Shown here piece after piece: positions 7,025-35,703 of a DNA stretch of 43,752 nt (position 1 is the first letter of the stretch; every line of letters begins with the position of its first letter). Both the position numbers and the translations under genes were made by a program. Source of the DNA: Brooklawnia sp. (lineage in GTDB: Bacteria > Actinomycetota > Actinomycetes > Propionibacteriales > Propionibacteriaceae); contig JAAYVP010000116.1 of the NCBI GenBank assembly GCA_012517115.1, positions 1-43,752 of the forward strand. The letters are read 5' to 3'. The notes beneath the pieces are model-generated. The model saw only the letters and a list, made by a program, of their open reading frames with translations, did no database searches and was not told where the DNA came from.

Positions 7025-8548
7025 ATGCAAGATCCGTTGGTCATCGCGATCGACACTTCGACCACGGCAACCAAAGCGATCATCGTCGATGCCACAGGCA
7101 GGGTGCTGGCGCAGGGGAAACGTGAGTTCCCGCTTGCCAATCCGCAGACGAGCTTCTATGAACACAATCCGCTCGACTGGTGGGAATCCACCGATGAGTC
7201 GATTACCGAAGCCATCTCGCTCTTGACTCAGTCGCAGAAGGATCGGATCGTCGCGATGGGTATCACCCACCAGCGCGAGACGTTCGCTTTGTTCGACAAG
7301 ATGGGTCACCCGCTCCGATCCGGCATCATCTGGATGGACGGGCGGGCCGCGGAGCAGATCCACAGGTACGGAACTCCCGAAATCCACGCACTGTCGGGCA
7401 AGCCGCCGGACATCACCCCGGCGTTGTACAAGATCGCCTGGGTAAAGGAACACCAGCCGGCCATGCTGTACGGGGCCTACAAGGTCGTCGACGTGCACTG
7501 CTATGTCGTCTACAAGCTGACCGGGCAGTGGATCTCGTCGGTTGCCTGCGCCGATTCGCTGGGTCTGTTCGACATCGCCAAACAGGACTACGATCCCGGG
7601 CTGCTGGAGATCGCCGGTGTCACTCGCGAGCAAATGGCCGATTTGAAGAAGCCGGGCGAGATCATCGGTGACATCAACAAGGAGATCACCGAGCGCTGGG
7701 GCCTGAAGCAGACTGTGCAATTGGTTGCTGGCATGGGTGACGGGCAGGCTGCCGGGGTCGGTGCCGCCGCGGTTGATCCCGATACCATGTACCTCAACTT
7801 CGGTACCGCCGTCGTCGGCGGCGTCCACGGCCCAGATTACCGCTACGGCAAGGCCTATCGCACCTTGGCAGCAGGCATCCCGAACTGGTATGACTTCGAA
7901 CTGCTCGTCAGCTCCGGTGCGTTCCTCACCACCTGGTTCCGCGAGGCTCTCGGCGACCCGCAGTTGGGCGCGAAGGTCGACCCCAAGCTGGAGGCGGACG
8001 CAACCGCGGTACCCGTCGGATGTCTGGGCCTGATAACGATGCCCTACTGGAACGCCGTTCAAACCCCGCACTGGGATCCGCTGGCGCGTGGCGCGGTCGT
8101 CGGTTGGCGCGGCATCCACAAGCGTGCCCACATGTACCGCTCGATTTTCGAGGCGATCAGCATGGAGATGCGCCAAGGCCTGGAGGGCCTTGAGGCGGCG
8201 ACCGGTCACAAGGTGACGAAGATCATCGGCATGGGTGGCGGCATTCGTAGCAAGCTGTGGCGCCAGATCATGACCGATGCGATGGGTGTGCCGATCACCG
8301 CTTGCACAGAGGACGAGATCTCCGCGCTGGGCGCAGCGGTAGCTGCTATGTCCGTTACCGGAGTCCACGGCGAGCCCGACATCGCCCACTACGCGAAGCA
8401 GATGGCGTCCTATGGCGACACCACCGAGCCAGACATAGACAACTACGCGATCTACGGCGAACTGTCTGCGATCCAGGCGAAGATCTACCCCGCGATGCAG
8501 GAGATCACGGAGGACATCAGCCAGTTCATGGGCAGGCATCCGGGCTGA
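7025..8548 (+). CDS. FGGY-family carbohydrate kinase
   Basis: A 507-residue sugar or polyol kinase of the glycerol/xylulose/erythritol kinase family. The N-terminal phosphate-binding segment is AIDTSTTATKAIIVD. GITHQRET and the IIWMDGRA segment lie in the first domain. The catalytic base is Asp239 in GMGDGQAAG, followed by LNFGTAVVGG. The C-terminal ATP site is IIGMGGGIRSKLWRQIMTD. A strong GAGGAG ribosome binding site precedes the ATG. It heads a row of four catabolic genes. The substrate is not readable from sequence. Erythritol, another tetritol or a ketose are candidates because of the RpiB- and GpsA-type neighbours. Family assignment is secure; substrate is inference. Confidence 0.9.
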   Translation: MQDPLVIAIDTSTTATKAIIVDATGRVLAQGKREFPLANPQTSFYEHNPLDWWESTDESITEAISLLTQSQKDRIVAMGITHQRETFALFDKMGHPLRSGIIWMDGRAAEQIHRYGTPEIHALSGKPPDITPALYKIAWVKEHQPAMLYGAYKVVDVHCYVVYKLTGQWISSVACADSLGLFDIAKQDYDPGLLEIAGVTREQMADLKKPGEIIGDINKEITERWGLKQTVQLVAGMGDGQAAGVGAAAVDPDTMYLNFGTAVVGGVHGPDYRYGKAYRTLAAGIPNWYDFELLVSSGAFLTTWFREALGDPQLGAKVDPKLEADATAVPVGCLGLITMPYWNAVQTPHWDPLARGAVVGWRGIHKRAHMYRSIFEAISMEMRQGLEGLEAATGHKVTKIIGMGGGIRSKLWRQIMTDAMGVPITACTEDEISALGAAVAAMSVTGVHGEPDIAHYAKQMASYGDTTEPDIDNYAIYGELSAIQAKIYPAMQEITEDISQFMGRHPG

Positions 8549-8607
8549 TCCGGTAGCGCTGCGCAACAAACGATCCGAATAACGACAAGGTGGAAGGTGC
8601 CGCAAGT

Positions 8608-9645
8608 ATGCGAGCGTACATGTTTTATGGGCCCGGCGATCTCCGGCTGGAAGATATTGAGCCACAGTCGGCTGGACCCGGAGAGGTGCGAGTCGAGATC
8701 CATGCCGCCGCTACCTGCGGCACCGACCTGAAGAGCTATCGGCGGGGCCACCCGACGTTGTTCCCGGTCTTGCCCGCCCGCTTCGGCCACGAGTTCGCCG
8801 GCAATGTCATTGAGATCGGCGAGGGCGTCACGAAGTTCGCCGTCGGCGACCGTGTGGTCGCCGCCAACACCTGTCCCTGCGGCAGTTGCTGGGCCTGCAC
8901 GATTGGGGAGGAGACACTGTGTGAGAACCTCTCATACCTCAACGGTGGCTTCGCTGAAGAGATCGTGATCCCGGCCAACATCGTGGCGCGGAACACCTAC
9001 AAGATCCCGGAGTCGCTGCCGTTCGAGGCGGCTGCGCCGTTGGAACCACTGTCGACTGTGGTGCACGGCATGGCCATGAGCGGCATCAAACTCGGCGACA
9101 CGGTGGTGGTCAACGGAGCTGGCCCTATCGGCCAGATGTACATCCGGCTGGCCCAATTGCGCGGCGCGTCGGTCATCTCAGCCGACATGTCCCCCGGTCG
9201 GCTGGCACAGGCAGCGGCCGCGGGGGCGGTCGAAACGGTCGACTTGGCGGGCATCGACTCGATCGAAGAGAAGGCGGCCGCCATCCGCGCAGTGACGCCG
9301 TACGGTCGTGGCGCCGATGTCGCGATCGAAGCCGTCGGGCTGCCGGAGGTCTGGGAGCAGACCTGGCGCTGCCTGCGTCCCGGTGGCACCGCGGTGATGT
9401 TCGGCGGACCCAAGGCCGGTTCGATGATGACGGTGGACGCAGTCGCCATGCACTACAAGGAGTACAAGATTCTGGGCGTCTACCATCACGCGCCGCGGTA
9501 CGTGCAGATAGCAGTCCATCTGCTGTCGACCGGCAAGTTCGACGGCATGACCTTGTGCAGCGAGGTACGGCCACTCGAAGCCCTGGTCGCCAGCCTCGAG
9601 GACATGTCCAACGGCATCGGCAGTAAGTACATCCTCAAGCCCTGA
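8608..9645 (+). CDS. Zinc-dependent polyol/alcohol dehydrogenase (MDR family)
   Basis: A 345-residue medium-chain dehydrogenase resembling sorbitol, threonine and tetritol dehydrogenases. Catalytic zinc ligands are C37, H61 and E62, with a further conserved Glu146. The structural zinc site is C91, C94, C97 and C105. The NAD-binding motif is VVNGAGPIGQM at 167-177. I start at 8608 (MRAYMFYGPGDL), the normal family N-terminus, with GGAAGG about ten bases upstream. A GTG at 8590 would add six residues. It follows the kinase by 59 bp and is 13 bp before the aldolase, so these probably form one operon. It would oxidise a hydroxyl of the pathway polyol to a ketone. Confidence 0.9.
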   Translation: MRAYMFYGPGDLRLEDIEPQSAGPGEVRVEIHAAATCGTDLKSYRRGHPTLFPVLPARFGHEFAGNVIEIGEGVTKFAVGDRVVAANTCPCGSCWACTIGEETLCENLSYLNGGFAEEIVIPANIVARNTYKIPESLPFEAAAPLEPLSTVVHGMAMSGIKLGDTVVVNGAGPIGQMYIRLAQLRGASVISADMSPGRLAQAAAAGAVETVDLAGIDSIEEKAAAIRAVTPYGRGADVAIEAVGLPEVWEQTWRCLRPGGTAVMFGGPKAGSMMTVDAVAMHYKEYKILGVYHHAPRYVQIAVHLLSTGKFDGMTLCSEVRPLEALVASLEDMSNGIGSKYILKP

Positions 9646-9658
9646 AGGGGGAGGCGTA

Positions 9659-10303
9659 ATGCTTCTGGAGAACGAACGTCAGGAAATCGTCGAAACCTGT
9701 CTCTACATGCAGCGCCATGGACTGGTGGTGGGCACGGCCGGAAACGTCTCCGTCCGGGTCGGTGATCTGGTCGCGATTTCACCTAGCGGGGTGGAATACG
9801 ACGCGATGACCGCAGCGGATGTCGTGGTCACTGACATGGCGGGGCAGATAGTGGATGGGTCGCTCAAACCGTCCAGTGAGTTGCCGTTGCACCTGGCCGT
9901 TTATCACTCCGGCCCAGCCATGGCCGTCACGCACAACCATGCACCGGCCTCCACCGCGCTCGGTCTGGTCGTCGACGTGATCCCGCTGTCGCACTACTAC
10001 TCGGGAATGTTCGGTGGTCCGGTCCGAGTCGCACCTTTCGCGATGTTCGGCACAGATCAACTGGCCATCAACGTGGCCGAGGCCCTCCGCGACCGTTCCG
10101 GTGCGCTGATGGCCAACCATGGCGCCATCACTACCGGTCCAACCCTGGCCAAGGCACTCAGCCTATTGCCTTACCTGGAGTACATCTGTGAGGTCCAGCT
10201 ACGGGCGATGGCCACTGGTGCTGAGATCAAGTACGTTTCGGACGCCGACATGGAACAGGCCATCATCGGCATGTCCACCTACGGCCAGCCCCAGAAGAAC
10301 TGA
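9659..10303 (+). CDS. Class II aldolase (fuculose-phosphate aldolase/AraD family)
   Basis: A 214-residue zinc enzyme of the class II aldolase/adducin family. Glu74 in SSELPLH is the catalytic acid/base. H92 and H94 in THNHAPAST and His154 in MANHGA bind zinc. The N-terminal GTAGNVSVR and ISPSGVEYD segments are the phosphate-binding elements typical of L-fuculose- and L-rhamnulose-1-phosphate aldolases. Such enzymes split ketose 1-phosphates into DHAP and an aldehyde, or epimerise pentulose 5-phosphates. In this cluster it could cleave or epimerise the product of the kinase and dehydrogenase. A GGGGGAGG ribosome binding site precedes the ATG. Confidence 0.9.
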   Translation: MLLENERQEIVETCLYMQRHGLVVGTAGNVSVRVGDLVAISPSGVEYDAMTAADVVVTDMAGQIVDGSLKPSSELPLHLAVYHSGPAMAVTHNHAPASTALGLVVDVIPLSHYYSGMFGGPVRVAPFAMFGTDQLAINVAEALRDRSGALMANHGAITTGPTLAKALSLLPYLEYICEVQLRAMATGAEIKYVSDADMEQAIIGMSTYGQPQKN

Positions 10304-10310
10304 CCAGACC

Positions 10311-10326
10311 GTACGCCTAGGCGTAC
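10311..10326. promoter_or_regulatory. Perfect 16-bp palindrome in the catabolic cluster
   Basis: GTACGCCTAGGCGTAC lies in the 45-bp gap between the aldolase and the GpsA-like gene. It shares GCCTAGGC with the palindrome at 6918-6929. CCTAGG is otherwise rare in this window. It has no T-run, so an operator is more likely than a terminator. Confidence 0.5.
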
Positions 10327-10348
10327 CCGGACCAGCAAAGGAATCCGC

Positions 10349-11398
10349 ATGACCAAAACTATCGTCGTCCTCGGAGCAGGGGCCATGGGCTCCGCGATGT
10401 GCACCCCGCTCACTCAGGCCGGTTGGGAAACCCGGCTGTGGGGAACGTGGCTCGATGATCACCTGATCGATGCGTGTGAGGCCGGGCAGCCCCATCCGCG
10501 CACCAACGTGCCGTTGGCTGTGGGCACCAAGATGTACCGCTCGGGACAGCTCGACGAGGCGCTGGACGGGGCCGATGCGGTCATCCTCTCCGTAGCTTCG
10601 CAGGGTGTGCCCAAGGTCACCGAGATGGCTCTACAGGGGATCTCGAAGTCGAAGGTCCTGCTGCTGACCAGCAAGGGTTTCTGCCCCGACGACGACGGCA
10701 AGATCCAGCTTCTGCCCGACGCCATCCGCCGGATCGCTGCGGCGAACAGTGTCGAGTTGCCCCCAATCGTCGCGGTGGCCGGGCCTTGCAAGGCCAACGA
10801 GGTGGCCGATGGTAAGCCCACCGCCACCATCTACGGCAGCCTTGACCGAAGTGTCGCCGAGCAGATGGCGAAACAGATCTCCACCGACGCGTACTGCATT
10901 CAACCGACCGACGACGAGATCGGCGTCGAGGTCTGCGCTCCGATGAAGAATGTCTATGCGATCGCGCTCGGGCTGGCTGATGGACTCGAGGCGGGCACCG
11001 GATTCCCGCATCACAATCTCAAGGCGGCAACCTTCGCCCAGGCTGTGCGCGAGATGTCCGAACTGTCGAAGGCGCTCGGCGCCGACCCGGTGACTGCCTA
11101 CGGGCTGGCTGGCGTCGGCGACCTTGAGGTGACCGGCTTGTCCGGACGCAACAAGGTCTACGGGCTGCGGATCGGTCGGGGCGAGCCAGCAGTGGAAGCG
11201 CTGGAGGCGATGATCGCTGCCGAGCAGACAGTCGAGGGTGTGCCGGCCGCCGGACTGGCCAAGCTGCTCGTCGAGCAGTTTGGCCAGGGTTTGGCGGCTT
11301 CGCTCCCGCTGTTGGCGGCCGTCCAGCGTGTCATTGCGGGCGAGGAGAATCCGAAGGAGATCGTGCAGGCGGCGGTTCTGCCAGCCAAGCTGATTTGA
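10349..11398 (+). CDS. NAD(P)-dependent glycerol-3-phosphate dehydrogenase family protein
   Basis: A 349-residue member of the GpsA family. The Rossmann motif is VLGAGAMGSAM at 7-17. The family signature GPxxAxEVAxGxPTA is kept as GPCKANEVADGKPTA, with Cys-Lys replacing the usual Ser-Phe. The catalytic lysine is Lys200 in APMKNVYAIALG, and the substrate-binding GVGDL and GRNKVYG segments follow. True GpsA makes glycerol 3-phosphate for lipids. Here the gene sits with a kinase, a dehydrogenase and an aldolase, so it may instead oxidise a phosphorylated polyol, such as a tetritol phosphate, to the ketose phosphate. The specialised role is inference; canonical GpsA remains possible. The ribosome binding site is AAAGGAA. 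Confidence 0.88.
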   Translation: MTKTIVVLGAGAMGSAMCTPLTQAGWETRLWGTWLDDHLIDACEAGQPHPRTNVPLAVGTKMYRSGQLDEALDGADAVILSVASQGVPKVTEMALQGISKSKVLLLTSKGFCPDDDGKIQLLPDAIRRIAAANSVELPPIVAVAGPCKANEVADGKPTATIYGSLDRSVAEQMAKQISTDAYCIQPTDDEIGVEVCAPMKNVYAIALGLADGLEAGTGFPHHNLKAATFAQAVREMSELSKALGADPVTAYGLAGVGDLEVTGLSGRNKVYGLRIGRGEPAVEALEAMIAAEQTVEGVPAAGLAKLLVEQFGQGLAASLPLLAAVQRVIAGEENPKEIVQAAVLPAKLI

Positions 11399-11477
11399 TC
11401 AAGCCGAAGCCCTGACGACGGCGCAACTGCAGTGGGTTGCTGCGGTGATCACCTCGATCGCAGGGAGCGTCTAACCA

Positions 11478-11519
11478 AACGTGGCCCGAATGACCTTTCT
11501 CGGTCATTCGGGCCACGTT
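11478..11519. terminator. Bidirectional hairpin terminator
   Basis: An 18-bp perfect stem (AACGTGGCCCGAATGACC and its complement) closes a six-base loop (tttctc). It lies between the convergent GpsA-like gene and the RpiB-type gene. Neither side has a long T-run, so it may act as a U-poor actinobacterial terminator. Confidence 0.8.
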
Positions 11520-11565
11520 GCAGGAGGCACTGAAAGCGATCAGTCCAAACGGGCTGCGGTCGAGC

Positions 11566-12006
11566 TCACTTCTGTTCGGCCTCGATCTCGACGACCCGGG
11601 CGACCTTGGGGGCACTGCGCGAGTTGGGATCGTAGGTGTTGGCGAGGTAGTTCTCAAGCAACACCTTCGCGGTTTCGATGCCGGTGGTCTGGGCGCCCAT
11701 GGCGACCATGTTGGCGTTATTGCTGAGCGTGGCACGCTGAGCCGAATAGGCGTCGGCGAGCAGCGCGCAGTAGGCGCCCTTGACCTTGTTCGCGGCGATA
11801 GAAACGCCGATACCGGTGCCGCAAACCACGACGCCACGGTCGTAGTCACCGCGGGCTACAGCACGCGCGACGTCGGCTGCGACGTTGGCGTAGATCGGGT
11901 CCTCGGCACCGAAATCGACTACCTCGTGACCTAGCGACTGCGCCTTCTCCATCAGGGCCGTTTTCAAGGCAGTGGCGTTGGGGTCGCATCCGAATGCAAG
12001 CTTCAT
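11566..12006 (-). CDS. RpiB/LacA/LacB-family sugar-phosphate isomerase
   Basis: A 146-residue isomerase interconverting aldose and ketose phosphates. Cys62 in VVCGTGIGVSIAANK is the catalytic thiol, and the anion-hole GTGIG is intact. The N-terminal GCDPNATALK replaces the usual GSDHAGFELK-type segment. The C-terminal tail DPNSRSAPKV also differs from ribose-5-phosphate isomerases, so a C4 sugar phosphate such as erythrulose 4-phosphate is a reasonable alternative substrate. The start at 12006 is chosen for its GGAAGG ribosome binding site and normal family length. An upstream start would add 16 polar residues. It converges on the kinase cluster across a strong terminator and may complete that pathway from its own promoter. 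Confidence 0.9.
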   Translation of the reverse strand: MKLAFGCDPNATALKTALMEKAQSLGHEVVDFGAEDPIYANVAADVARAVARGDYDRGVVVCGTGIGVSIAANKVKGAYCALLADAYSAQRATLSNNANMVAMGAQTTGIETAKVLLENYLANTYDPNSRSAPKVARVVEIEAEQK

Positions 12007-23253: not shown

Positions 23254-26200
23254 ATGTCAGCCGCCCATGGTTGCATGGGCTGCATGAAGCTGGTGAGGGC
23301 AGAAAACCGCCGCGAACCCGGGCCGCTGACGCAGGCGCAAGGTGCCGTCCTGGAAGCCTGCACCCGCCCGGCGTCCGCGATCTGCGTGCTCGGTGGGCCA
23401 GGCACCGGCAAGACGACGACGCTGGTGGCTGCCGTGGTGGCGCGCGTGCGGTCGGGCGTCCCACTTGACCAGCTGGTTGTCCTGACCGGTTCGCGTTCAG
23501 CAGCCCAGCAGCTTCGAGCTCGCATCGTTGCGGCCTTGGGCACCACCCAACGGGGCTTGCAGGTCACCACTGTGCATGGCTGGTGCCAGCAGTTGTTGCA
23601 TCGCCTCGAGGAGCCCGACGACCCGACACCGCGGCTACTTAGGGCTCCGGAACAGGAGTTCCGCGTCCGGGAGTTGCTGGCTGGCTGGGGTGTCGGCCAG
23701 TGGCCGGCAGAGTTGGTGCCCGCGCTGGGCACTCGGGGGTTCGCTCGTGAAGTGCGGACTGCGCTGGCGCGGGCGCGGCAGCTGGGTCTTGATCCCGATG
23801 TCTTGGCGGGCGTCGGGCGTGCTGCGCAGCTTCCCGAGTGGGTTGCGTTGGCTGGCTTCTTCAATGAGTACCTCGACGTGCTCGATGCCGAAGGCGTCAT
23901 CGACTACGCCGAACTGGTGCACCGGACGAGGTTGGCGCTGACCGATGAACGGGTACGCGTTCGCCTGCCCAGTCTTGCGGCGACCATCTTCTGCGACGAG
24001 TTCGCCGAACTCGACCGCGGGATGATCCACGTCTTGGCCGACGCGCACCGGGCGGGCAGTCAAGTGGTGGCGTTTGCCGACCCAGACACCAGTGTCTTCG
24101 GTTTCCGGGGTGCCGATCCGCGCGCGGTGGCCGACTTCGATGATCGTTTCGGCCCAGCGGTGACACTTCGGCTGGACCAGAACCTGCATAGTCGCGACGG
24201 CATCGTCCGAGCCCTGCATTCGCTGGCCGGACGCCTGCCGCATCGTGGCGTTGACCACCCGCCAACCGATGGTGGGGGAGTCGACCGCGCGGTCCGGGTC
24301 TTCTTGGTGCCCGACGGCGCAGCGCAGGCCCAGGAAGTCGCCGAAGTGCTGCGCCAGGCCCACCTCCGCGATGGCATGGCCTGGTCGGAACTGGCAGTCA
24401 TCACGCGCTCCGGGCAGAATGCTGTCGCCACTCTCGCCCGCAGGTTGGCGGGCGCTGGGGTGCCCGTGCAGGTCGCTGGCGATGAGGTGGCGTTGGCCGA
24501 CGAACTGGCGGTACGGCACTTGCTGACGCTGCTGATGGCTGCCGCAAGAGCGTCCGAAGGTCAGCTGCCCGACGATCGGCAGGCTGCCAGACTGCTGCGA
24601 ACCCCAATCGGCGGGCTGGACGCACTCGGGCTGCGCAGGTTGGGCCGCGAACTACGGCGTCGGGCATTCGCTGCCGCCCCCGACCAGGTGCCAGCCGCCT
24701 CGGGTCAACTGATCGCCGCTGAGTTGGCCGGCGAACGGCTGGTTGCCGACGACGAACCCGCCGCGTCCCCCGATCTTGTGGCGCTGGTCCGGTTCCGTCG
24801 GCTGCTGGGCGAACTCACCGGGTTGGTTTCGCAGCGTGCAGACCTGCCCACCGTCTTATGGCACGCCTGGTCAGCTACCGGGTGGCCCGGCAAGCTGCAA
24901 GCTGAGGCGTTGAGCGGCACCGACGGCTCGGCCCGAGCGAACCGTGATCTAGATGCCGTGGTCGCGCTATTCGACCTGGCCTCCCGCGAGGTGAGCTGGG
25001 CGGGCGCCAAAGGCGTCCGCTCGCTGGTCGCCGAGGTAGAGGAGCAGCAGATCCCCGCTGACACCGCGCGCGAGAACGACCCGCGACGCTCGGGGGTGAC
25101 CGTGACCACTGTGCACCGATCGAAGGGCCGCCACTGGCGGCTGGTGGTGCTGGTGGGACTGCAGGAAGGACAGTGGCCGATGCTGGCGGAGCCGGGGGGT
25201 CTGCTGCGTGCCGACCTGCTGGCCGCAGATGGTTTGCAACCCCCGCCCACGGTGTCGGAGCGGCTAGCGGCCGAACGACGGGCGCTGCTGCTGGCTGCCA
25301 GCCGAGCCGGCGAGCAGTTGGTGGCCATCGGCATCGACGATCCTAGTGGCGAGACAGATCCCCCCTCGCGCTTTCTCGGCGAGTTCGGTGTGGTGCCGGA
25401 GCACGTCCAACCCGGCCGGGTGCCGTCCACTTTGCCAGCGCTGGTGGCGGAGTTGCGTCGCGTGGTAACCGACCAGGCCGCCGCCCCGGCCCTGCGCGAA
25501 CGAGCGGCCGCCCAATTGGCCTGGCTCGCCGAGCAAGTAGACGACCAGGGGCGCGCGATGGTCAAGGGCGCCGATCCGAGGGAATGGTGGGGGCTTCGCG
25601 AGGTGAGTCGTGCCGAGCAGCCGGTCACCGACCTTGCCCGGCCGATCCGGCTCAGCGGCAGCGAAGTAGAGCAACTGCTCGGCTGCCCCCGACAGTGGTT
25701 CTTGTCCCGTCGGGTCCGAGCCGCTCGGCCTTGGGGGGTCGACGCCGCCTTCGGCACGCTGGTGCATCAGTTGGTTGCGCAGGCGACCAGCAACGGTGTG
25801 GCCGCGTCCGGGCTGTTGCCCGAGTTGGATGGCGGCTGGGCTCGCTTGCCCTACGACGCCGAATGGATCAGTCTGGCGGAGCGGCAGGCCGCCCAGGAAG
25901 CACTGGGGAGATTTGACGTGTGGGCGTCCACCGCAGACCACGGCCGCGTGTTAGGGGTGGAGGTCGAATTTCAGGTGCCGTTGAGCTTGGACGGCCACGA
26001 GCTGGTGCTGGTCGGCACCGTCGACCGGCTTGAGCTGGACGACCAAGATCGGCTCCGGGTGATCGATTTCAAGACCAGCCGAAGCCCGCGTCGCAGCGAT
26101 GAGGTGGCCGAAATGGATCAGCTCGGCATCTACCAATTAGCGGGGCGGATGGGCGCATTCGACGAGATCGCCGATGGCCGACGTGAGCTGGCGCCCGCTG

Positions 26201-26424
26201 AGGTGGTCTACCTGCGTTGCGGGCTCGCCTCGGGTGAGCCGACGGTGAAGTTCCAGCCTTCGCTGGACGCGCAGCCGACCGCTCGGACCTGGGTGCACGA
26301 ACGGCTTGCGCGGGCAGCCGAAGTCATCACTGCCGAGCGGTTCGAGGCCCGGGCCCACATCGGCTGTTCCTGGTGCGATTTCAGGTCAGGCTGCCCGCTG
26401 CAGCTGATGGGGAGAGACAGATGA
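23254..26424 (+). CDS. adnA: AdnA-type helicase-nuclease subunit
   Basis: A 1056-residue UvrD-like helicase with a C-terminal RecB-type nuclease, matching the AdnA subunit of the actinobacterial AdnAB double-strand-break resection complex. Motif I is GGPGTGKTTT near residue 47, followed by TVHGWC. Motif II is the divergent CDEFAELD instead of DEYQDT. Motif III is DPDTSVFGFRGA, and the distal motif is TTVHRSKGRHW. The nuclease domain has GTLVHQLV, GTVDRLE and the catalytic VIDFKTS. C811 and the C1038/C1041/C1047 group form the Fe-S staple seen in AddB/AdnA-type nucleases. In-frame ATGs also occur at 23275 and 23284. The stop overlaps adnB (ATGA), so the subunits are made together. Confidence 0.92.
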   Translation: MSAAHGCMGCMKLVRAENRREPGPLTQAQGAVLEACTRPASAICVLGGPGTGKTTTLVAAVVARVRSGVPLDQLVVLTGSRSAAQQLRARIVAALGTTQRGLQVTTVHGWCQQLLHRLEEPDDPTPRLLRAPEQEFRVRELLAGWGVGQWPAELVPALGTRGFAREVRTALARARQLGLDPDVLAGVGRAAQLPEWVALAGFFNEYLDVLDAEGVIDYAELVHRTRLALTDERVRVRLPSLAATIFCDEFAELDRGMIHVLADAHRAGSQVVAFADPDTSVFGFRGADPRAVADFDDRFGPAVTLRLDQNLHSRDGIVRALHSLAGRLPHRGVDHPPTDGGGVDRAVRVFLVPDGAAQAQEVAEVLRQAHLRDGMAWSELAVITRSGQNAVATLARRLAGAGVPVQVAGDEVALADELAVRHLLTLLMAAARASEGQLPDDRQAARLLRTPIGGLDALGLRRLGRELRRRAFAAAPDQVPAASGQLIAAELAGERLVADDEPAASPDLVALVRFRRLLGELTGLVSQRADLPTVLWHAWSATGWPGKLQAEALSGTDGSARANRDLDAVVALFDLASREVSWAGAKGVRSLVAEVEEQQIPADTARENDPRRSGVTVTTVHRSKGRHWRLVVLVGLQEGQWPMLAEPGGLLRADLLAADGLQPPPTVSERLAAERRALLLAASRAGEQLVAIGIDDPSGETDPPSRFLGEFGVVPEHVQPGRVPSTLPALVAELRRVVTDQAAAPALRERAAAQLAWLAEQVDDQGRAMVKGADPREWWGLREVSRAEQPVTDLARPIRLSGSEVEQLLGCPRQWFLSRRVRAARPWGVDAAFGTLVHQLVAQATSNGVAASGLLPELDGGWARLPYDAEWISLAERQAAQEALGRFDVWASTADHGRVLGVEVEFQVPLSLDGHELVLVGTVDRLELDDQDRLRVIDFKTSRSPRRSDEVAEMDQLGIYQLAGRMGAFDEIADGRRELAPAEVVYLRCGLASGEPTVKFQPSLDAQPTARTWVHERLARAAEVITAERFEARAHIGCSWCDFRSGCPLQLMGRDR

Positions 26425-29400
26425 GTGCAGTTCTTAGTTCCACCGCTGAGCTGGTCGATTTGCTGGGTGTGCCCTTCAGCGCCGAGCAGCTCAGCGCGAT
26501 CACGGCGCCACTTGCCCCCGGGGTGATCATCGCTGGCGCTGGCACCGGCAAGACCACGGTGATGGCCGCCCGGGTGGTCTGGCTGATCGGCACGGGCCAG
26601 CTGTGTGCAGACCAGGTGCTCGGGCTCACCTTCACCCGCAAGGCGTCCGCCGAGTTGTCCCAGCGGGTGGACGAGTCGCTGGCCCGCGCCGGTTTGGGTG
26701 GCAACGCTGTGGCCGCTGACGGTGGGCGACCGGTGGTGATGACCTACGACGCCTTCGCGGGGCGTTTGGTGAACGACTTCGGGTTACGCATCGGGGTGGA
26801 GGCCGACCAGCGAATGGTCACCGGGGCAACCAGGTTTCGGCTGGCTGCCCAGGCCGTCTCACGGGTGCGTGGCGCGCTGCCTGAACTCGGGCATCTGCGC
26901 CCGGCGACTGTCACCGGACGGCTGTTGAAGTTGGACGGCGAACTGCAGGCACACTTGGTCGGTGCGGCCGAGGTGCTGCTGCACGACCGGGACTTCGCCA
27001 AAGAGTTGGCAGGCGTGAAACCCCACCGCGGTCAGCCCACCAAGGCGGTCCGCGAGGCGCAGTCAGCGCTCGGCGCCCGTTCCGAGCTGCTCGCATTAGT
27101 GGACGACTACCGACGCTTGAAGCACGAGCGGGGCCTCGTCGAGTACGCCGACCAGATGGCACTGGCGGCCGCAATCGCAGAGAACGCGCCAGACGTGGCA
27201 CGGCAATTGCGTGAGCGGTTCGCAGTAGTGCTGCTGGACGAGTACCAGGACACCTCGGCGGCGCAGGCCCGTTTGCTGCGGGCCCTGTTCTCCGGCGGAC
27301 ACCCGGTCACGGCGGTCGGTGACCCGTTCCAAGCGATCTACGGTTGGCGCGGCGCCGCGCCCAGCAACATCCTGCAGTTCGGAGACGACTTCCCCCGAGT
27401 CGATGGCCGCCCGGCCAACCGCTACTCACTGCGGACCAATCGGCGCAGCCGACCGGTTATCCTCGACGCGGCGAATCGGCTGGCTGCCCCGCTGCGCGCC
27501 GACCAGCGGCTGGTGGTGCCAGGCGACAACCACGATCACACCCTGCGTGCGCCGGCTGGGAAAACCGGCGGCCAGGTGTGGGTAGCGTCCTTCGACTGCT
27601 GGCCCGAGGAGGTCGACTGGATCGCCGATCAGGTGGTCAGCGCCAAAGAGCAGCAGACGGTCTCGTCGTGGTCCGAGATCGCCGTGCTGACCAGGGCTAA
27701 CGCCCCCATCGGAGCGCTTTTCAAGGCGCTGACCGAACGCGACGTGCCGGTTGAGATCGTCGGCCTCGGCGGGCTGCTCGAAGTGCCCGAGATCGCCGAC
27801 ATCGTCGCCACACTGACGCTGATCGAAGACATCACAGCAAACCCACAAGTCATTCAACTACTCAGCAGCGCACGCTGGCGTGTCGGCCCCAGGGATTTGG
27901 CGGTCCTAGGTGAACGGGCCCGTAGTTTGTGCCGGTCGGCAACGACCATCCCGCGCGCGGCAAGCGATGAACTCGAACTCACCGAACAGTTGTGTCTGAT
28001 GGACGCGGTCGACGACCTCGGCCCCGCCCCCCTGTCTGCGTCCGCCCGAGAACGCATCTGCGAGTTCGCGGCGGAGTTGCGGATGCTGCGCCGCCATCGC
28101 GACGAACCAGTGCTGGAACTGGTGCACCGGGTGATCGAGGCCAGTGGAGTCGGTTTAGAGTTGGAGTCGCACCCGGAGTGGCATGCGACCGGTCGAAGTC
28201 GGCAGCTGACCCAGTTCGTGGACTCCATCGCCGACTACGTCGACATTGATGGCGATGGCGCGCTCAGTGGACTGCTCGCTTGGTTCGAGGCGGAACGCGA
28301 GACCGCCGAGGGTCTCGACCAGGCGGTTCCGAGCAGCCTCGATTCAGTGAAGTTGCTGACCGCCCATCGCGCCAAAGGACTTGAGTGGGACCTGGTCTTC
28401 CTGCCCGCGCTGTGCGAAGGTGTCTTCCCCAGCACGTTGCCGCCGGACAACTGGGTGACCCAAGCGCAGGTGCTGCCTGCCGGGTTGCGGGGCGACGCCG
28501 AGTGGGTGCCGCAACTTGGCTCGGTGAGCCGTGGTCAAGACTTCACTGACTACAAGCGCGAGCTGGCGACCGCTGCGCGGCAGGCCGAGGACCGGCTGAG
28601 TTACGTGGCGGTGACGCGGGCGCGGCAGCGTGTGGTGGCCAGTTGCCACTACTGGTTCCCAGGCCGCAAGACAGCGCGCTGCCCCTCGCCGTACTTCGAG
28701 TTGTTGTGGCAGGTTGCGGCCCAGACCGACGGTGTTCGGCGGGTCGCAGCGGTATCCGAGGTGAACCCGCTCAGCAACCAAGAGCTTCAGGTCGCCTGGC
28801 CGCCCCCGGACGACCAGTCCCGAATCGCCGCGCTGCGGGCAGGCGCCGCGCTTGTTCAGCAGGCCCGATCGCAGCCCATGTTCGACTGCTCCGGCGCAGA
28901 CCTGGACGCAGATCAGCAGGGCGCACGGTGGCAGCGGGCAGCTGAGTTGCTGGTGGCACAGGAGCGGGCCAGACATCGTCGTCACGAATCCGTTGCGCTG
29001 CCCGGCTCGGTGTCTGCATCCGGGTTGTTGATGGCGAGCCGGGACGCCCAATCGTTCGCCGCTCAGATCGTCCGACCAATGCCTCGGCCGGTTGGCCGGC
29101 AGGCGGGCGTGGGTACCCGTTTCCACGAGTGGCTAGAGAAGCGCTTCGGAGTTGCGGCCCTGTTCGAGCACGACGAACTCGATCTCGAACCAGACGAAGC
29201 CGATGACCCGTCATCCGCAGATCTGATGCTGCGGCGGCTGATCGCCGCGTTCGAGCGCGGCAGGTATCGCGACCTGACACCCCAGGTGGTCGAGGAACCA
29301 TTCATCTTGGTGCTCGACGGCCAGCAGGTCCGCGGGCGGATCGATGCGGTTTTCGCTACACCCGACGATGCCCACCACGACTATCAGGTGGTCGACTGGA

Positions 29401-29609
29401 AGACGTCTACGCGGCCCGCCGACCCGCTGCAGTTGTCGCTCTACCGGTTGGCGTGGGCGCACACTGCCGGCGTCCCGGTAGATCGGGTGGACGCGGTCTT
29501 CTACCATGTGCTCACCGACGAAGTGGAACGCCCTCAGCGGCTGCTGAGCGAGGCCGAACTGGTGGAACTGCTAGATTCCCTGGCCGCCCCGACGCCGACA
29601 GGAAGGTAG
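26421..29609 (+). CDS. adnB: AdnB-type helicase-nuclease subunit
   Basis: A 1062-residue partner of AdnA. The Q motif is PFSAEQLSAI and motif I AGAGTGKTT (about 38-46). Motif II is the canonical LLDEYQDTS, motif III GDPFQAIYGWRGA, and the distal motifs TAHRAKGLEWD and YVAVTRARQR, so the ATPase looks fully active. The C-terminal nuclease has GTRFHEWLE, RGRIDAVF near 973 and the catalytic VVDWKTST. Unlike AdnA it lacks an Fe-S cysteine cluster. In mycobacteria AdnB is the lead motor and each subunit cuts one strand, preparing ends for RecA. The start is set by the four-base overlap with adnA. The TAG stop forms part of the nudC -10 box. Confidence 0.93.
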   Translation: MSAVLSSTAELVDLLGVPFSAEQLSAITAPLAPGVIIAGAGTGKTTVMAARVVWLIGTGQLCADQVLGLTFTRKASAELSQRVDESLARAGLGGNAVAADGGRPVVMTYDAFAGRLVNDFGLRIGVEADQRMVTGATRFRLAAQAVSRVRGALPELGHLRPATVTGRLLKLDGELQAHLVGAAEVLLHDRDFAKELAGVKPHRGQPTKAVREAQSALGARSELLALVDDYRRLKHERGLVEYADQMALAAAIAENAPDVARQLRERFAVVLLDEYQDTSAAQARLLRALFSGGHPVTAVGDPFQAIYGWRGAAPSNILQFGDDFPRVDGRPANRYSLRTNRRSRPVILDAANRLAAPLRADQRLVVPGDNHDHTLRAPAGKTGGQVWVASFDCWPEEVDWIADQVVSAKEQQTVSSWSEIAVLTRANAPIGALFKALTERDVPVEIVGLGGLLEVPEIADIVATLTLIEDITANPQVIQLLSSARWRVGPRDLAVLGERARSLCRSATTIPRAASDELELTEQLCLMDAVDDLGPAPLSASARERICEFAAELRMLRRHRDEPVLELVHRVIEASGVGLELESHPEWHATGRSRQLTQFVDSIADYVDIDGDGALSGLLAWFEAERETAEGLDQAVPSSLDSVKLLTAHRAKGLEWDLVFLPALCEGVFPSTLPPDNWVTQAQVLPAGLRGDAEWVPQLGSVSRGQDFTDYKRELATAARQAEDRLSYVAVTRARQRVVASCHYWFPGRKTARCPSPYFELLWQVAAQTDGVRRVAAVSEVNPLSNQELQVAWPPPDDQSRIAALRAGAALVQQARSQPMFDCSGADLDADQQGARWQRAAELLVAQERARHRRHESVALPGSVSASGLLMASRDAQSFAAQIVRPMPRPVGRQAGVGTRFHEWLEKRFGVAALFEHDELDLEPDEADDPSSADLMLRRLIAAFERGRYRDLTPQVVEEPFILVLDGQQVRGRIDAVFATPDDAHHDYQVVDWKTSTRPADPLQLSLYRLAWAHTAGVPVDRVDAVFYHVLTDEVERPQRLLSEAELVELLDSLAAPTPTGR

Positions 29610-29612
29610 CCT
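29607..29612 (+). promoter_or_regulatory. -10 box of nudC overlapping the adnB stop
   Basis: TAGCCT begins with the adnB stop codon TAG and lies seven nucleotides (cgcagtt) before the nudC GTG. The same arrangement and hexamer occur at sdhB/xthA. Confidence 0.5.
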
Positions 29613-29619
29613 CGCAGTT

Positions 29620-30492
29620 GTGAACGAGCGCCGCGTCCATCACGTCCAGATGCGCCCATGGGATGCCCCGTCGCTGCTCCACCGCTCATCCGAATTGCGC
29701 GACGACGACACGTTGCAACTGTTGTGGCGCGACCCGCGGGCCCGGTTGCTGCTGGTGGACGCGGGGTCCCGTTTCGCGCTCGACCCGTTCGGCTCGCCGA
29801 CGATGGGCGATCTCGACCAGACCATCGCCTTCCTGGGTACCGTGCAGGGTGAGCCATGGTTCGCCCAGCGGGTCGAGCGGGTTCCGGGCGGTGAAACTAT
29901 CCGCGACGCCTCCCTCACCGACACGCAATACCAGCTTGCCAGTGCCGCACTGGCGATCCTCAACTGGGGCGAATCAGCGATATTCTGCGATCGCTGTGCC
30001 GGGCGGCTGCGGAGGATTCGCGGCGGATTCGCCGCAGTTTGCACCACTTGCGGGCGCGAGCACTTTCCCCGCACCGATCCGGCGGTCATCGTTGCGGTCC
30101 TCGACCCGCACGACCGGCTCTTCCTGGCTCACCAGGGCGCTTGGGCGGCAGGTCGGGCGTCCATCCTCGCCGGCTTCGTGGAGGCGGGGGAGAGCGCCGA
30201 GAATGCGGTGCACCGCGAAGTCGCCGAGGAAGCCCGACTCGTGGTCGACAGTTGCCGCTTCATCGGGTCACAACCATGGCCGTTCCCGCGTTCGTTGATG
30301 TTGGCCTACGTGGCCCGCACCCGCTCAATCGGACGCGTCGACGAGGTCGAGTTGGAGTGGGGCGGCTGGTACACCCGGGCCGACGTGGACGCCGCCCAAG
30401 CACGGGGTTCGCTCACGCTGCCCGGCACGGGTTCGGTGGCCGGGCGAATCCTGGACGCTTGGCGAGCCGACACGTTACCTTCACCGGACTGA
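29620..30492 (+). CDS. nudC: NADH pyrophosphatase (Nudix family)
   Basis: A 290-residue Nudix hydrolase that cleaves NADH to NMNH and AMP and can remove NAD caps from RNA. The zinc ribbon is C123, C126, C141 and C144. The Nudix box spans G185-L207 and contains REVAEEARL, with Arg where the consensus has Gly. The NADH-specific array SQPWPFPRS is at 217-225. The first 110 residues are the NudC N-terminal domain. The GTG start is supported by a TAGCCT box seven bases upstream. It lies between adnB and uvrD2 as in mycobacteria (from memory), but here it is separated from uvrD2 by recCBD. It converges with recD with only 61 bp between. Confidence 0.93.
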   Translation: MNERRVHHVQMRPWDAPSLLHRSSELRDDDTLQLLWRDPRARLLLVDAGSRFALDPFGSPTMGDLDQTIAFLGTVQGEPWFAQRVERVPGGETIRDASLTDTQYQLASAALAILNWGESAIFCDRCAGRLRRIRGGFAAVCTTCGREHFPRTDPAVIVAVLDPHDRLFLAHQGAWAAGRASILAGFVEAGESAENAVHREVAEEARLVVDSCRFIGSQPWPFPRSLMLAYVARTRSIGRVDEVELEWGGWYTRADVDAAQARGSLTLPGTGSVAGRILDAWRADTLPSPD

Positions 30493-30553
30493 TCTGTCTT
30501 CGGCTGGCGACGGTCAAGGCCCGCTCAGACCTGGACTGCCCGATCTCGTGACC

Positions 30554-32386
30554 TCACTTCGACTTCAGCCGGTCACCGAGCCCGGTGGCGCGTCGGGCGC
30601 GGGTGGTTATCGCCTGGATGATTGCGTCCTTGGTGGCGATGATCCGCACTTTGTGTTGGGCCCGGGTGACAGCGGTGTACAGCAACTCTCGGGTGAGCAG
30701 CGGTGAGCCGACCGGCGGCAGCACCAGACTGACCGCTCCGTACTCGCTACCCTGCGACTTGTGCACCGTCAGCGCATGCATCGTCTCGACGGAATCGAGC
30801 AACCAGGGCGAGCGCAGTCTGGGCACGTCACCGGCCGTCAGCGCGACCTCGGCGGTTCCGCCCAACCGGACCACCACGCCGGTGTCGCCGTTGGCGATTT
30901 GCAGTTCCGGTGCGTTGCGGGTGATCAGCACGGGGCGACCCAGATACCATTCGCCTTCGCGACCGTAGCCGCTGATCTGACGGCGCAAGAACTGCTCGAC
31001 GGCCCGTGACCAGCCGGTCACACCGTAACGACCATGCCGGTGCGCGCACAGCAACCGGTGGGCGTTCAACACCGTCAGTGCCTCGACACTGTGGCCGAGG
31101 AGGGCGGCGGAGTGGATAGCTCGGCCTTGGGTCAGTAGGTCGTCGGATAGCCCGGCCGTGGCGGCGAGCGAACCCGGGTCGGGGTCAATCGGCAGCCATT
31201 CGAGTTCTGGACCGTCGGTCTCCAACAAGGCCAACGCGCGATCAACGTGGGCGTCCCGGATCGCTTCGGCGAACTGCTGGATCGGCCCAGAGAACCGGTG
31301 CGAATGGTCGAGCACCGTGACCGCGCTGCTCGGGTTGCTGCTGCTGACGGGCAGATCTGCGGTAACGATGTCGGCCAATACCGCGCCGGCCTCAACCGAC
31401 GACAGCTGGTGGGGGTCGCCCACCAGCACCAGCCGGGTGCTGGGCCGCAGCGCCGACAGCAGCGCGCACATCAGGCTGAGCGAGACCATAGACATCTCGT
31501 CCACGATCAGCACGTCGTAAGGCAGCGGGTTGTCGGCGTTACGCGTGAAACCGGCGTGCGGCCGGGCGCCGAGTAACGAGTGCAGGGTGGTCGCCCGGGT
31601 CACCCGCAACCGTCGCCACGGCTGGCCGGCCCGTTCTGATCGCGCCAAGGAATCGTCCAGCGAATGCTGCATGCGGGCTGCTGCCTTCCCGGTGAACGAC
31701 CCGAGCGCCACGGTGGTGCGCCGGTCGGCCAGGTCATCCAGGACGCGCAAGAGCTGCGCGATCGTGGTGGTCTTGCCGGTGCCAGGGCCACCAGCGATCA
31801 CGCTGGTCCAACTCTTCACGCAGTTGCGGACCGCGTCTTTCGGCCGTGCAGAGGCACCGGCCGGGATCCCGAACGCTTCGAATGCGCGGTCAACCGCCGC
31901 GTCGAGTGCACCCTGGTCGACCTGCGGCGGACTGGCGTCCAGTCGGGTCAATAGCCCCCACCGGACGTCCTCTTCGGCCTGCCAGTTGCGTTCGAGATAG
32001 ACCCGGCGTTCGACTAGGCGGAGCGGGAGACGATTCTCGGCGACTTGTTCACCCACCGCGACCAACGGCGAGGACGCCAGCATCGCAAGCCACTCGTCCA
32101 CCCCGGGCCAGGGCAGTTCGCCCGGCGGGGGTATCTGGTCGGGCATCTGGTCTTGGTCGGGTTCGACAGCGGTGGTTTGCACCACATCGTCGAGCGGTAG
32201 GCAGACCGATCCGGCTTCCTGAGCGCGCAAGCAGAGCGCGGCCGCCAGCAAGACCTCTGGCCGGTTCTCGCCCACCAGCCGGCCGAGGGTGCGAGCCAGG
32301 TGCACTCCGCTCCAACCGATCACACCGGCTTGTGCGAACTCGGCGAGCAGACCTTCGGCTGCTACGGGGATGTCGATACCGTGCAC
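30554..32386 (-). CDS. recD: RecD subunit of exonuclease V
   Basis: A 610-residue superfamily 1B helicase, the 5'-to-3' motor of RecBCD, equal in length to E. coli RecD. The N-terminal 170 residues contact RecB/RecC. Motif I is IAGGPGTGKTTTI near 200, motif II IVDEMSMVS and motif III VGDPHQLSSVEAG. The C-terminal motifs are TVHKSQGSEYGAV and LYTAVTRAQ. The GTG start at 32386 lies one base beyond the recB stop, so it is the last gene of the recC-recB-recD operon. All helicase motifs are intact. Confidence 0.94.
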   Translation of the reverse strand: MHGIDIPVAAEGLLAEFAQAGVIGWSGVHLARTLGRLVGENRPEVLLAAALCLRAQEAGSVCLPLDDVVQTTAVEPDQDQMPDQIPPPGELPWPGVDEWLAMLASSPLVAVGEQVAENRLPLRLVERRVYLERNWQAEEDVRWGLLTRLDASPPQVDQGALDAAVDRAFEAFGIPAGASARPKDAVRNCVKSWTSVIAGGPGTGKTTTIAQLLRVLDDLADRRTTVALGSFTGKAAARMQHSLDDSLARSERAGQPWRRLRVTRATTLHSLLGARPHAGFTRNADNPLPYDVLIVDEMSMVSLSLMCALLSALRPSTRLVLVGDPHQLSSVEAGAVLADIVTADLPVSSSNPSSAVTVLDHSHRFSGPIQQFAEAIRDAHVDRALALLETDGPELEWLPIDPDPGSLAATAGLSDDLLTQGRAIHSAALLGHSVEALTVLNAHRLLCAHRHGRYGVTGWSRAVEQFLRRQISGYGREGEWYLGRPVLITRNAPELQIANGDTGVVVRLGGTAEVALTAGDVPRLRSPWLLDSVETMHALTVHKSQGSEYGAVSLVLPPVGSPLLTRELLYTAVTRAQHKVRIIATKDAIIQAITTRARRATGLGDRLKSK

Positions 32387-32387
32387 T

Positions 32388-35300: not shown

Positions 35301-35699
35301 TTCGTCCAGCATCCGTTTGGCGAAGGTGTGCAGCGTGACAATCGGTGCCTCGTCGACTTGCCCGAGCGCTCGCTCGATGCGGTCGAGCCGGGTTGCCAGC
35401 AACTCGGCGTCGGCGGCGATCACTCGGTCGACGTCGTCGTCACCGACGGGGCCACCGTCGATGACCCGTTGCAGCGTGGCGCGACTGCTAACCAGCCGGT
35501 CGCGGATGCTGTCGCGGAGTTCGGAGGTCGCGCGACGGCTAAAGGTCACTGCCAGGATCTGCCCCAGCGGGAAGCCCTCGCAAACGAACCGGGCGACCAT
35601 GCCGGCGATGGTGTACGTCTTACCGGTGCCCGCGCTGGCCTCCAGCACGGTCGTGGTGCCGACTTCTGGCAGCGGACCGAACCAGTCGAAGTCCTCCAT
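32388..35699 (-). CDS. recB: RecB subunit of exonuclease V
   Basis: A 1103-residue 3'-to-5' helicase with C-terminal nuclease. Motif I is EASAGTGKTYTI at 20-31, motif II LVDEFQDTDPQQW and motif III GDPKQAIYRFRGGD, followed by MTVHQAKGLQFP and FYVACTRAQ. The nuclease has GTQFGSLVHAVLE, GSIDVVLR near 970 and the catalytic VVLDYKTNR near 995, then the YPLQALLYCAALHRYL helix. It is about 75 residues shorter than E. coli RecB, with no obvious domain missing. The ATG start lies four bases after the recC stop. With RecC and RecD it forms the second complete end-resection enzyme in the window. Confidence 0.94.
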   Translation of the reverse strand: MEDFDWFGPLPEVGTTTVLEASAGTGKTYTIAGMVARFVCEGFPLGQILAVTFSRRATSELRDSIRDRLVSSRATLQRVIDGGPVGDDDVDRVIAADAELLATRLDRIERALGQVDEAPIVTLHTFAKRMLDELGLLADHDRAVELGSDLDVLADEVIADIYLSDERWQRLDWAYASMLGRIANAHPAEQLHPPGDDYALRVGFAAAVRAEIDRRKRLLRVLTYDDMINRLAATLTDPGNGPAAAELLSSRFRVVLVDEFQDTDPQQWQFLAAGFHGRATMMLIGDPKQAIYRFRGGDVETYSAARASADRVIRLGTNHRSDIGVVRGIERIFGPIDLGTPSAAIKLTQINARHTLARIRASIDQPAEMVRIRAIDADDPLRIESAREKIQADLLAQVDLLLTGSYELRNSAGEWRRVSPDDIAVLVASNKVGQQVHEMLAASGYPSVFSGESSVFTTQAATDWLVLLEALETPDRRHLRRAMMTCLVDWTSADIATADGDDLVAMTALLTRCARLLADQGVAAVFETLTAERQLYSRLLSRPGGEALVTDLRHVTEILNQTEYLGAPGLAEYLRRRIERASQIPDERTRRLPTDRPAIRVMTVHQAKGLQFPIVLLPQAADRYCQDPYEDTPIIGHVDGVRVLDVAQPLDRADRTEDYRSEEAAESLRSFYVACTRAQSLLVMWWAPTPHNTTRSALHRLLCNNRWDGTPPPPFFSPLPAAQLPSRPYCHLTLVDPSGLARPASLEVTDSEASQQVLDARIFSDHIDREWVRTSYTGLTAAMHSEASRPIDAESDETELPADRVETEASLRIAVESADSTGSTDGDAVQAPTSALATLPGGTQFGSLVHAVLERVDPADDELLGALSRELAVLADRFPLAGLDTDRLAHGLVQTLTTPLGLLTDNRSLRQLGARHRLTELDFELPLGAANRRRKVADLAALFETQLPDADPLRRYGSQLAGSAAAETVLAGFLTGSIDVVLRVPGPHPRFVVLDYKTNRVPTQADEPLTACHYTPAAMTAAMCEAHYPLQALLYCAALHRYLAWRLPGYIPGRHLGGVGYLFVRGMTGPDNPILGAMPSGVFTWQPPTGMIVRASELLAGAQ

Positions 35700-35703
35700 G
35701 CTG

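Follow-up and report, generated by a model that had tools for sequence, protein, structure and literature searches.

Which reaction does a GpsA-type dehydrogenase catalyse when its gene lies in a row with genes for an FGGY-family kinase, a zinc-binding dehydrogenase of the medium-chain dehydrogenase/reductase (MDR) type and a class II aldolase? The question is raised by a 43,752-nucleotide stretch of DNA from Brooklawnia sp. (Propionibacteriaceae; GenBank assembly GCA_012517115.1, contig JAAYVP010000116.1), called the window below. An earlier note on this DNA had read the four genes, together with a facing gene for an RpiB-type isomerase, as an unassigned polyol or ketose catabolic module, and Pfam matches and open reading frame (ORF) coordinates find all five genes where it had placed them (Table 1). 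The name GpsL is used here for the window's GpsA-like dehydrogenase and its relatives. The kinase-GpsL pair is real and recurs across many Actinomycetota, and it reads best as a kinase-first polyol module. For the four plus-strand genes taken together, there is about an even chance that they encode a kinase-first pathway leading from a polyol through polyol-1-phosphate and ketose-1-phosphate to dihydroxyacetone phosphate (DHAP) and an aldehyde.

Recurrence of the kinase-GpsL pair

Scanned with the window's GpsL protein, GTDB genomes yielded 66 loci. Most of them belong to Actinomycetaceae and Propionibacteriaceae; further ones come from Pseudonocardiaceae, Microbacteriaceae, Apibacter-type Bacteroidota and two distant Methylomirabilota. 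A same-strand FGGY kinase (at least 33% identity) is found within 2.6 kb of GpsL in 62 of the 66 loci, and within 700 bp in 55. The exceptions are L068, L076 (at a contig end), and L078 and L081 (Methylomirabilota, 35-36% identity). Around seven canonical GpsA genes, in flanking stretches of at most about 1.5 kb each, no relatives of the other four window proteins were found. Given this control and the 62 paired loci, the association of FGGY kinase and GpsL is not due to chance.

Within 9 kb of GpsL, relatives of the MDR enzyme (at least 55% identity) are present in 17 of the 66 loci, in four of these on the opposite strand and 5-7 kb away, and relatives of the aldolase (at least 55%) in 14. 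RpiB relatives (at least 38%) are present in 11 loci, namely nine in which RpiB adjoins GpsL, L032 (5.8 kb away, opposite strand) and L018, the sister of the window. A conserved co-occurrence of all five families, which the earlier note had suggested looking for, was not seen: a linked aldolase and a linked RpiB are found together only in L018. Aldolase, MDR enzyme, kinase and GpsL occur in at least four arrangements, which argues for a functional association: FGGY-MDR-aldolase-GpsL; aldolase-FGGY-GpsL-MDR-DeoR; FGGY-GpsL-MDR-aldolase; and an aldolase divergent from MDR-PTS-FGGY-GpsL, where PTS is a phosphotransferase system. In this fourth order, from Acidipropionibacterium, the MDR enzyme is just 34% identical to that of the window. 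In the Acidipropionibacterium-type loci L055, L203 and L204, genes for an MDR enzyme and a galactitol-type PTS come before the pair, and those for a PRD regulator and the aldolase point the other way, in divergent orientation.

Neighbours were clustered from 67 sources, that is, the 66 loci and the left 22 kb of the window. A DeoR-type regulator was found in 33 of the 67, the DeoR domain being shown in single members only. Some loci of relatives add an Rbs-type ATP-binding cassette (ABC) importer or a Gat-type PTS, as judged by Pfam with one representative per ABC part. In the window itself the statement that no transporter or regulator is linked held up, since none of 30 Pfam-searched ORFs matched such families; four of them matched nothing, and smaller ORFs were outside the search.

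The Apibacter/Flavobacteriaceae FGGY-GpsL copies (L021, L023, L025, L026 and L083) are nested in Actinomycetaceae in a 97-row quick tree, and three of the five have two kinases; a horizontal transfer between phyla is probable from this placement. The GpsL sequence is spread across more than one reading frame in two loci, L079 (10001-10966) and L080 (10001-11025), by decay or by sequencing error.

GpsL and canonical GpsA

The best NCBIfam GpsA model gives GpsL 189.9 bits against a cut-off of 257 bits, and among the models listed no GpsA cut-off was reached. The quick tree of 97 sequences, for which the program warned of long branches, included 7 canonical GpsA proteins, 76 GpsL proteins and 12 members of GpsL2, a second paralogue. 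In the quick trees the seven canonical proteins are split from GpsL plus GpsL2 with an SH-aLRT support of 100, and in the 97-sequence tree GpsL2 forms a clade, also with a support of 100. The base of the 76 GpsL proteins was not resolved: in a 49-row tree, 28 of them stand on one side of a branch with a support of 18.6, which neither demonstrates nor rejects a single GpsL clade.

GpsL and canonical GpsA have a common fold and catalytic-type residues. Unlike canonical GpsA, however, GpsL mostly carries [VC]KANE in place of SGPNL(A/S), together with the segment LWGT.LDD, and is coupled to an FGGY kinase. The corresponding segments of GpsL2 are GPSIAGE and L[VI]GT.LD[RD]; L111, L196 and L198 are exceptions to these signatures. 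Lys109, Lys200, Asn201, Asp258, Thr262, Arg267 and Asn268, which have catalytic and phosphate-binding roles in glycerol-3-phosphate dehydrogenases, are invariant in all 35 aligned sequences (31 GpsL, 2 GpsL2 and 2 from Methylomirabilota). The AlphaFold2 model of GpsL has a mean predicted local distance difference test score (pLDDT) of 95.8, and its nearest PDB structure is the A. fulgidus glycerol-3-phosphate dehydrogenase 1txg (E value 4.4e-30, TM-scores 0.87/0.91). On the strength of the invariant residues, the high-confidence model and the match to 1txg, GpsL is expected to act as a dehydrogenase on a CHOH group adjoining CH2-O-P.

Could the pair be nothing more than a cellular glycerol-3-phosphate dehydrogenase (GpsL) with a divergent glycerol kinase? 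The nearest solved relative of GpsL is such a dehydrogenase, and no PF07479 protein other than GpsL was found in the genome of the window (91.8% complete) and in a presumed Propionibacterium freudenreichii genome, G147. However, a further PF07479 protein is present in 23 of the 24 GpsL genomes searched, with a canonical-like score (174-190 bits) in 7 of the 24. Moreover, PF07479 was unmatched in 108 of 195 Propionibacteriaceae genomes, and in 71 of the 141 with at least 90% completeness and at most 5% contamination, so that the biosynthetic role of GpsA looks dispensable there; the idea that GpsL is an essential GpsA is weakened accordingly. A separate glycerol kinase above cut-off is also present in all 30 GpsL genomes searched (747.6 bits for GlpK in the genome of the window), which rules out the window kinase as the glycerol kinase. 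With GpsL below every GpsA cut-off among the models listed, this explanation is very improbable. The possibility that the earlier note had named as refuting its reading, namely that GpsL is the sole and canonical glycerol-3-phosphate dehydrogenase, holds only formally in its first half, and the cut-offs and the tree split speak against the second.

In many Propionibacteriaceae, glycerol-3-phosphate for lipids must arise by another route.

The FGGY kinase

The window kinase falls below the NCBIfam cut-offs for both XylB (278 against 380 bits) and GlpK (194 against 590 bits). All 38 GpsL-linked kinases that were aligned share Gln83, Arg84, Glu85, Trp103 and Asp239. In the GlpK of T. kodakarensis, glycerol is contacted by Arg83, Glu84 and Asp245, according to excerpts of PMC3245297. 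By alignment to this protein, the window kinase retains the glycerol-contacting Arg, Glu and Asp, while the positions of Tyr135 and Phe270 are occupied by Thr and Val, a replacement consistent with a roomier polyol pocket. Among 66 relatives the Phe270 position holds Asn in 39, Val in 16 and Thr in 10, and is gapped in one. Six of the seven tandem kinase pairs combine one Asn with one Val kinase, which suggests that two substrates may feed one GpsL. Nine of the ten Thr kinases belong to the nine loci in which RpiB adjoins GpsL; the tenth is in L082. A tie between the pocket residue and the presence of the aldolase was also considered and dropped, as there was no clean split.

XylB is the best-scoring model for the kinase, and its AlphaFold2 model (mean pLDDT 91.7) has its best structural matches among xylulose and gluconate kinases. 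Together with a FucA-like aldolase, this would suit a ketose pathway of the L-fucose/D-arabinose type, in which the MDR enzyme oxidises a free polyol to a ketose, the FGGY kinase converts this to a ketose-1-phosphate for cleavage by the aldolase, and GpsL serves to reduce DHAP to glycerol-3-phosphate. Against it, the FGGY kinase is linked to GpsL in 62 of 66 loci, the aldolase in only 14 and the MDR enzyme in only 17, and the kinase has QRE where XylB (2itm) has QMH; we regard it as decidedly improbable.

A candidate pathway

The reactions proposed for the four genes, with their substrate, cofactor and direction, are read from gene content, co-linearity, the recurrence of the kinase-GpsL pair, the residues and the distance of GpsL from GpsA. 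The FGGY kinase would add a terminal phosphate to a polyol with a longer chain than that of glycerol, giving a polyol-1-phosphate. GpsL, with NAD(P), would oxidise the carbon next to the phosphorylated CH2 to a 2-ketose-1-phosphate, in what would be a soluble counterpart of the step of the GlpD-like EryB in Brucella. The FucA-type aldolase would split this product into DHAP and an aldehyde, which would be formaldehyde if the ketose is a tetrulose and glycolaldehyde if it is a pentulose, and the MDR dehydrogenase would reduce or oxidise the released aldehyde, or feed in free polyol. Glycerol-kinase-like phosphorylation would yield D-polyol-1-phosphates, GpsA-like oxidation of an L-configured carbon next to CH2OP would yield D-ketose-1-phosphates, and FucA-type aldolases make and break (3R) ketose-1-phosphates. 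Given the stereochemistry of the three families, the steps could connect without an epimerase. What the earlier note had proposed of a kinase-first route, with an NAD(P)-linked GpsA-type enzyme acting on a polyol phosphate, is supported by the FGGY-GpsL pairing, by the position of GpsL off canonical GpsA, by the polyol-contacting residues of the kinase and by the separate true glycerol kinase of the genome; its assignment of RpiB to the module was not borne out, as described below.

The aldolase can be aligned to E. coli FucA (1dzx/1fua) over about 200 residues, and has the motifs GTAGN, SPSG/TPTG, SSE, HNH and HG, which presumably bind phosphate and zinc. It thus has these motifs in common with the FucA and ribulose-1-phosphate aldolases, but unlike them it stays below the NCBIfam cut-offs, the best model being ribulose-1-phosphate aldolase (160.7/300 bits) and another reaching 149.9/264 bits. 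According to the part of PMC10733421 that was available, E. coli FucA and RhaD can form D-erythrulose-1-phosphate from DHAP and formaldehyde. If cleavage of a tetrulose-1-phosphate were confirmed, the aldolase would be a natural enzyme for formaldehyde-assimilation designs, as asked for in the same portion of that article. The MDR enzyme reached no NCBIfam cut-off among the models listed. An aldolase 56-69% identical to that of the window also occurs off GpsL, in L216-L220, where another FGGY kinase (c82) and a 2-hydroxyacid dehydrogenase (c83) accompany it together with a DeoR-like regulator.

Comparison with known systems provides several parallels. The erythritol pathway of Brucella and Rhizobium (EryA, EryB, EryC, TpiB/EryH, RpiB/EryI) likewise starts with an FGGY-family kinase followed by oxidation of the polyol phosphate, and its RpiB-type isomerase is paralleled beside GpsL in some relatives. 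EryB, however, is a GlpD-like flavin dehydrogenase; no such enzyme was met in the window cluster, where Pfam shows only GpsA-type (PF01210/PF07479) and MDR dehydrogenases. Also unlike the Brucella pathway, the cluster has an aldolase and an MDR enzyme, and EryC and TpiB were not found in it. As a possible counterpart of the Brucella erythritol kinase EryA, the window has an FGGY kinase with polyol-type residues. In Mycobacterium smegmatis, EltD is an MDR-type erythritol/threitol dehydrogenase and DerI is RpiB-type, and both families are also present in the window. The tetritol pathways of M. smegmatis use a DAK-type kinase and are not known to include a GpsA-type enzyme. In these pathways (EltD, LerK, LerI, DerI) the dehydrogenase precedes the kinase (PMC10733421, in part), unlike in the order of steps proposed for the window.

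Erythritol and ribitol in propionibacteria

The best guesses for the substrate are erythritol or ribitol. Excerpts of PMC4437456 report fermentation of erythritol and adonitol by all 21 tested strains of P. freudenreichii, to which no genes, those of Brucella included, could be assigned; in what was available of PMC4619572, strain DSM 20271 uses erythritol, adonitol and glycerol. The preference for these polyols rests on this phenotype and on the presumed P. freudenreichii genome G147, which carries a locus FGGY-GpsL-DeoR. In addition, GpsL is carried by 5 of 5 listed genomes of group g2, three of which are presumed Acidipropionibacterium, including A. thoenii and A. jensenii. The FGGY-GpsL pair is thereby a concrete and testable two-gene candidate for the missing erythritol/ribitol genes of dairy, food-grade propionibacteria. 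If this is true, it would mean new chemistry on the GpsA fold, and the names of glycerol-3-phosphate dehydrogenases given by general models in Actinomycetota would need revision. Among the matches listed, the open-licence literature contained no report of an FGGY-GpsA pair or of propionibacterial erythritol genes; PMC5644110 does not mention erythritol, adonitol or xylitol, and the portion of PMC11962113 that was available deals with a flavin-type glycerol-3-phosphate dehydrogenase.

The erythritol route of Propionibacterium pentosaceum, the present-day A. acidipropionici, comes from the same bacterial family as the window, and no gene for it was met. An NAD-linked erythritol-phosphate dehydrogenase activity belongs to this route. 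A 1968 study of it by Wawszkiewicz assigns, in its title, a role to L-erythrulose 1-phosphate. An erythrulose-1-phosphate aldolase is suggested to act in cleavage in the part of PMC10733421 that was available. In its most specific form the proposed pathway would make the window operon this never-cloned route. Its enzymes would be an erythritol kinase, an NAD-linked erythritol-phosphate dehydrogenase evolved from the GpsA fold and an erythrulose-1-phosphate aldolase (EC 4.1.2.2) that yields DHAP together with formaldehyde, the latter being removed by the MDR enzyme. GpsL, which in some species would be supplied by a tandem pair of kinases differing in pocket type, would open pentitols as well. 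This extended version is rather unlikely.

A second polyol-type module was seen in L041 (1565-6321), L054, L057, L254 (genome G086) and L259 (genome G090). It consists of an FGGY kinase (c11), an enzyme resembling glycerol-1-phosphate dehydrogenase (172/413 bits for one member), an AraB-like kinase, sometimes an AraD-like protein, and GpsL2. The GpsA and glycerol-1-phosphate dehydrogenase types act on opposite stereochemistry, so the GpsL module and the module with GpsL2 and the latter type may split polyols by configuration.

Several observations weigh against the proposed pathway. First, the aldolase is not universal: a relative of at least 58% identity is present in 13 of 27 GpsL genomes, and in another set, of 18 genomes, which overlaps the first in part and includes two without GpsL (G002 and G003), a relative of at least 63% is present in 6. 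In 5 of the 13 the aldolase is found apart from GpsL, where its neighbours are another FGGY kinase and a 2-hydroxyacid dehydrogenase, and in Flaviflexus these two genes also stand ahead of the aldolase within the GpsL locus. Given these neighbours, the aldolase may serve another substrate. Second, G147 has no close aldolase (best 38%), and thus the cleavage step cannot be general. Use of erythritol or adonitol could alternatively stem from L252, a second polyol-type cluster in this genome, so the assignment of its FGGY-GpsL locus stays hypothetical. Third, in G086, presumably Cutibacterium acnes, an erythritol-fermenting species, a GpsL2-type protein is present and GpsL was not found. Fourth, GpsL of A. 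timonense (L068) has no FGGY kinase within 10 kb. Finally, RpiB adjoins GpsL on the same strand, at 6-240 bp, in 9 of the 66 loci. An RpiB beside GpsL implies a ketose with its phosphate far from the carbonyl, which misfits oxidation next to the phosphate.

The RpiB neighbour

This last observation leads to another explanation. A tetritol phosphorylated by the kinase at its far end, or D-arabitol likewise, would be oxidised by GpsL at C2 to D-erythrulose-4-phosphate (or D-ribulose-5-phosphate), and the RpiB-type enzyme would convert this to an aldose phosphate, leaving the aldolase and the MDR enzyme to another substrate. The nine loci with RpiB, GpsL and FGGY in a row (Pseudonocardiaceae, Microbacteriaceae and others) fit such a route; several of them have an Rbs-type importer, and one adds a DAK kinase. 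In G003, a genus-mate of the window's organism, a DAK-type kinase and a split transketolase adjoin the window-type RpiB. These RpiBs, like 5ifz, have no canonical His of the ribose-5-phosphate isomerases. As a proof of a C4 substrate, the missing His was rejected as too general, because many RpiBs at 34-49% identity are also without it.

In the lineage of the window, however, RpiB is convergent with GpsL and present at its site without the operon. Copies 86% identical to the window RpiB occupy the syntenic site in the genus-mates G002 and G003, next to the same DUF2505 and NAD-glutamate dehydrogenase genes and with an extra short-chain dehydrogenase-like gene in between, and neither genome has GpsL. 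The presumed P. freudenreichii genome, moreover, has no window-type RpiB (best 42%). The isomerase route is fairly unlikely for the window. With the order RpiB-DUF2505-glutamate dehydrogenase present without GpsL, and linked aldolase and RpiB together only in the sister of the window, RpiB was not accepted as a working part of the operon, in disagreement with the earlier note. The window RpiB reaches the general RpiB model (142.3/135 bits) and stays below the NF051858 model for D-erythrulose-4-phosphate isomerase (DerI/EryI; 132/240 bits); it is probably a tetrulose-phosphate-type isomerase that was at the site before the operon arrived. For GpsL at large, the family may be split in substrate, since the RpiB-GpsL-FGGY loci fit a product with a far-end phosphate and their kinases carry Thr at the Phe270 position. 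The kinase-first pathway with oxidation next to the phosphate and cleavage by the aldolase stays our preferred reading for the window operon.

Organization of the locus

From the kinase through the MDR and aldolase genes to GpsL, successive genes are separated by 59, 13 and 45 bp. RpiB lies tail-to-tail with GpsL, and the hairpin between them has a predicted stability of -43.1 kcal/mol (z = -7.98; none of 200 shuffles was equally stable); it was not picked up by a T-tract terminator rule. The GC content is about 0.62-0.65 over the four plus-strand genes and 0.66-0.68 in the genes to their left, which fits an insertion and is no proof of it.

Table 1. Features of the GpsL locus in the window
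Feature	Coordinates	Strand	Support
FGGY-family kinase, predicted polyol kinase	7025-8548	+	Pfam FGGY_N 172 bits, FGGY_C 99 bits
MDR zinc-binding dehydrogenase	8608-9645 (alternative GTG start 8590)	+	Pfam ADH_N, ADH_zinc_N
FucA-type class II aldolase, predicted to cleave ketose-1-phosphate to DHAP and aldehyde	9659-10303	+	Aldolase_II 167 bits
GpsL, non-canonical GpsA-type, predicted polyol-phosphate dehydrogenase	10349-11398	+	NAD_Gly3P_dh_C 112 bits, NAD_Gly3P_dh_N 70 bits
Inverted repeat between convergent units, probable bidirectional terminator	11478-11519	.	perfect 18-bp stem
RpiB-family isomerase, neighbour, probably outside the operon	11566-12006	-	LacAB_rpiB 137 bits

Elsewhere in the window, at 23254-38859, two consecutive UvrD plus PD-(D/E)XK proteins, an AdnAB-like pair, are followed on the opposite strand by RecD-, RecB- and RecC-like proteins. 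This region thus has a pair of adjacent recombination nuclease systems.

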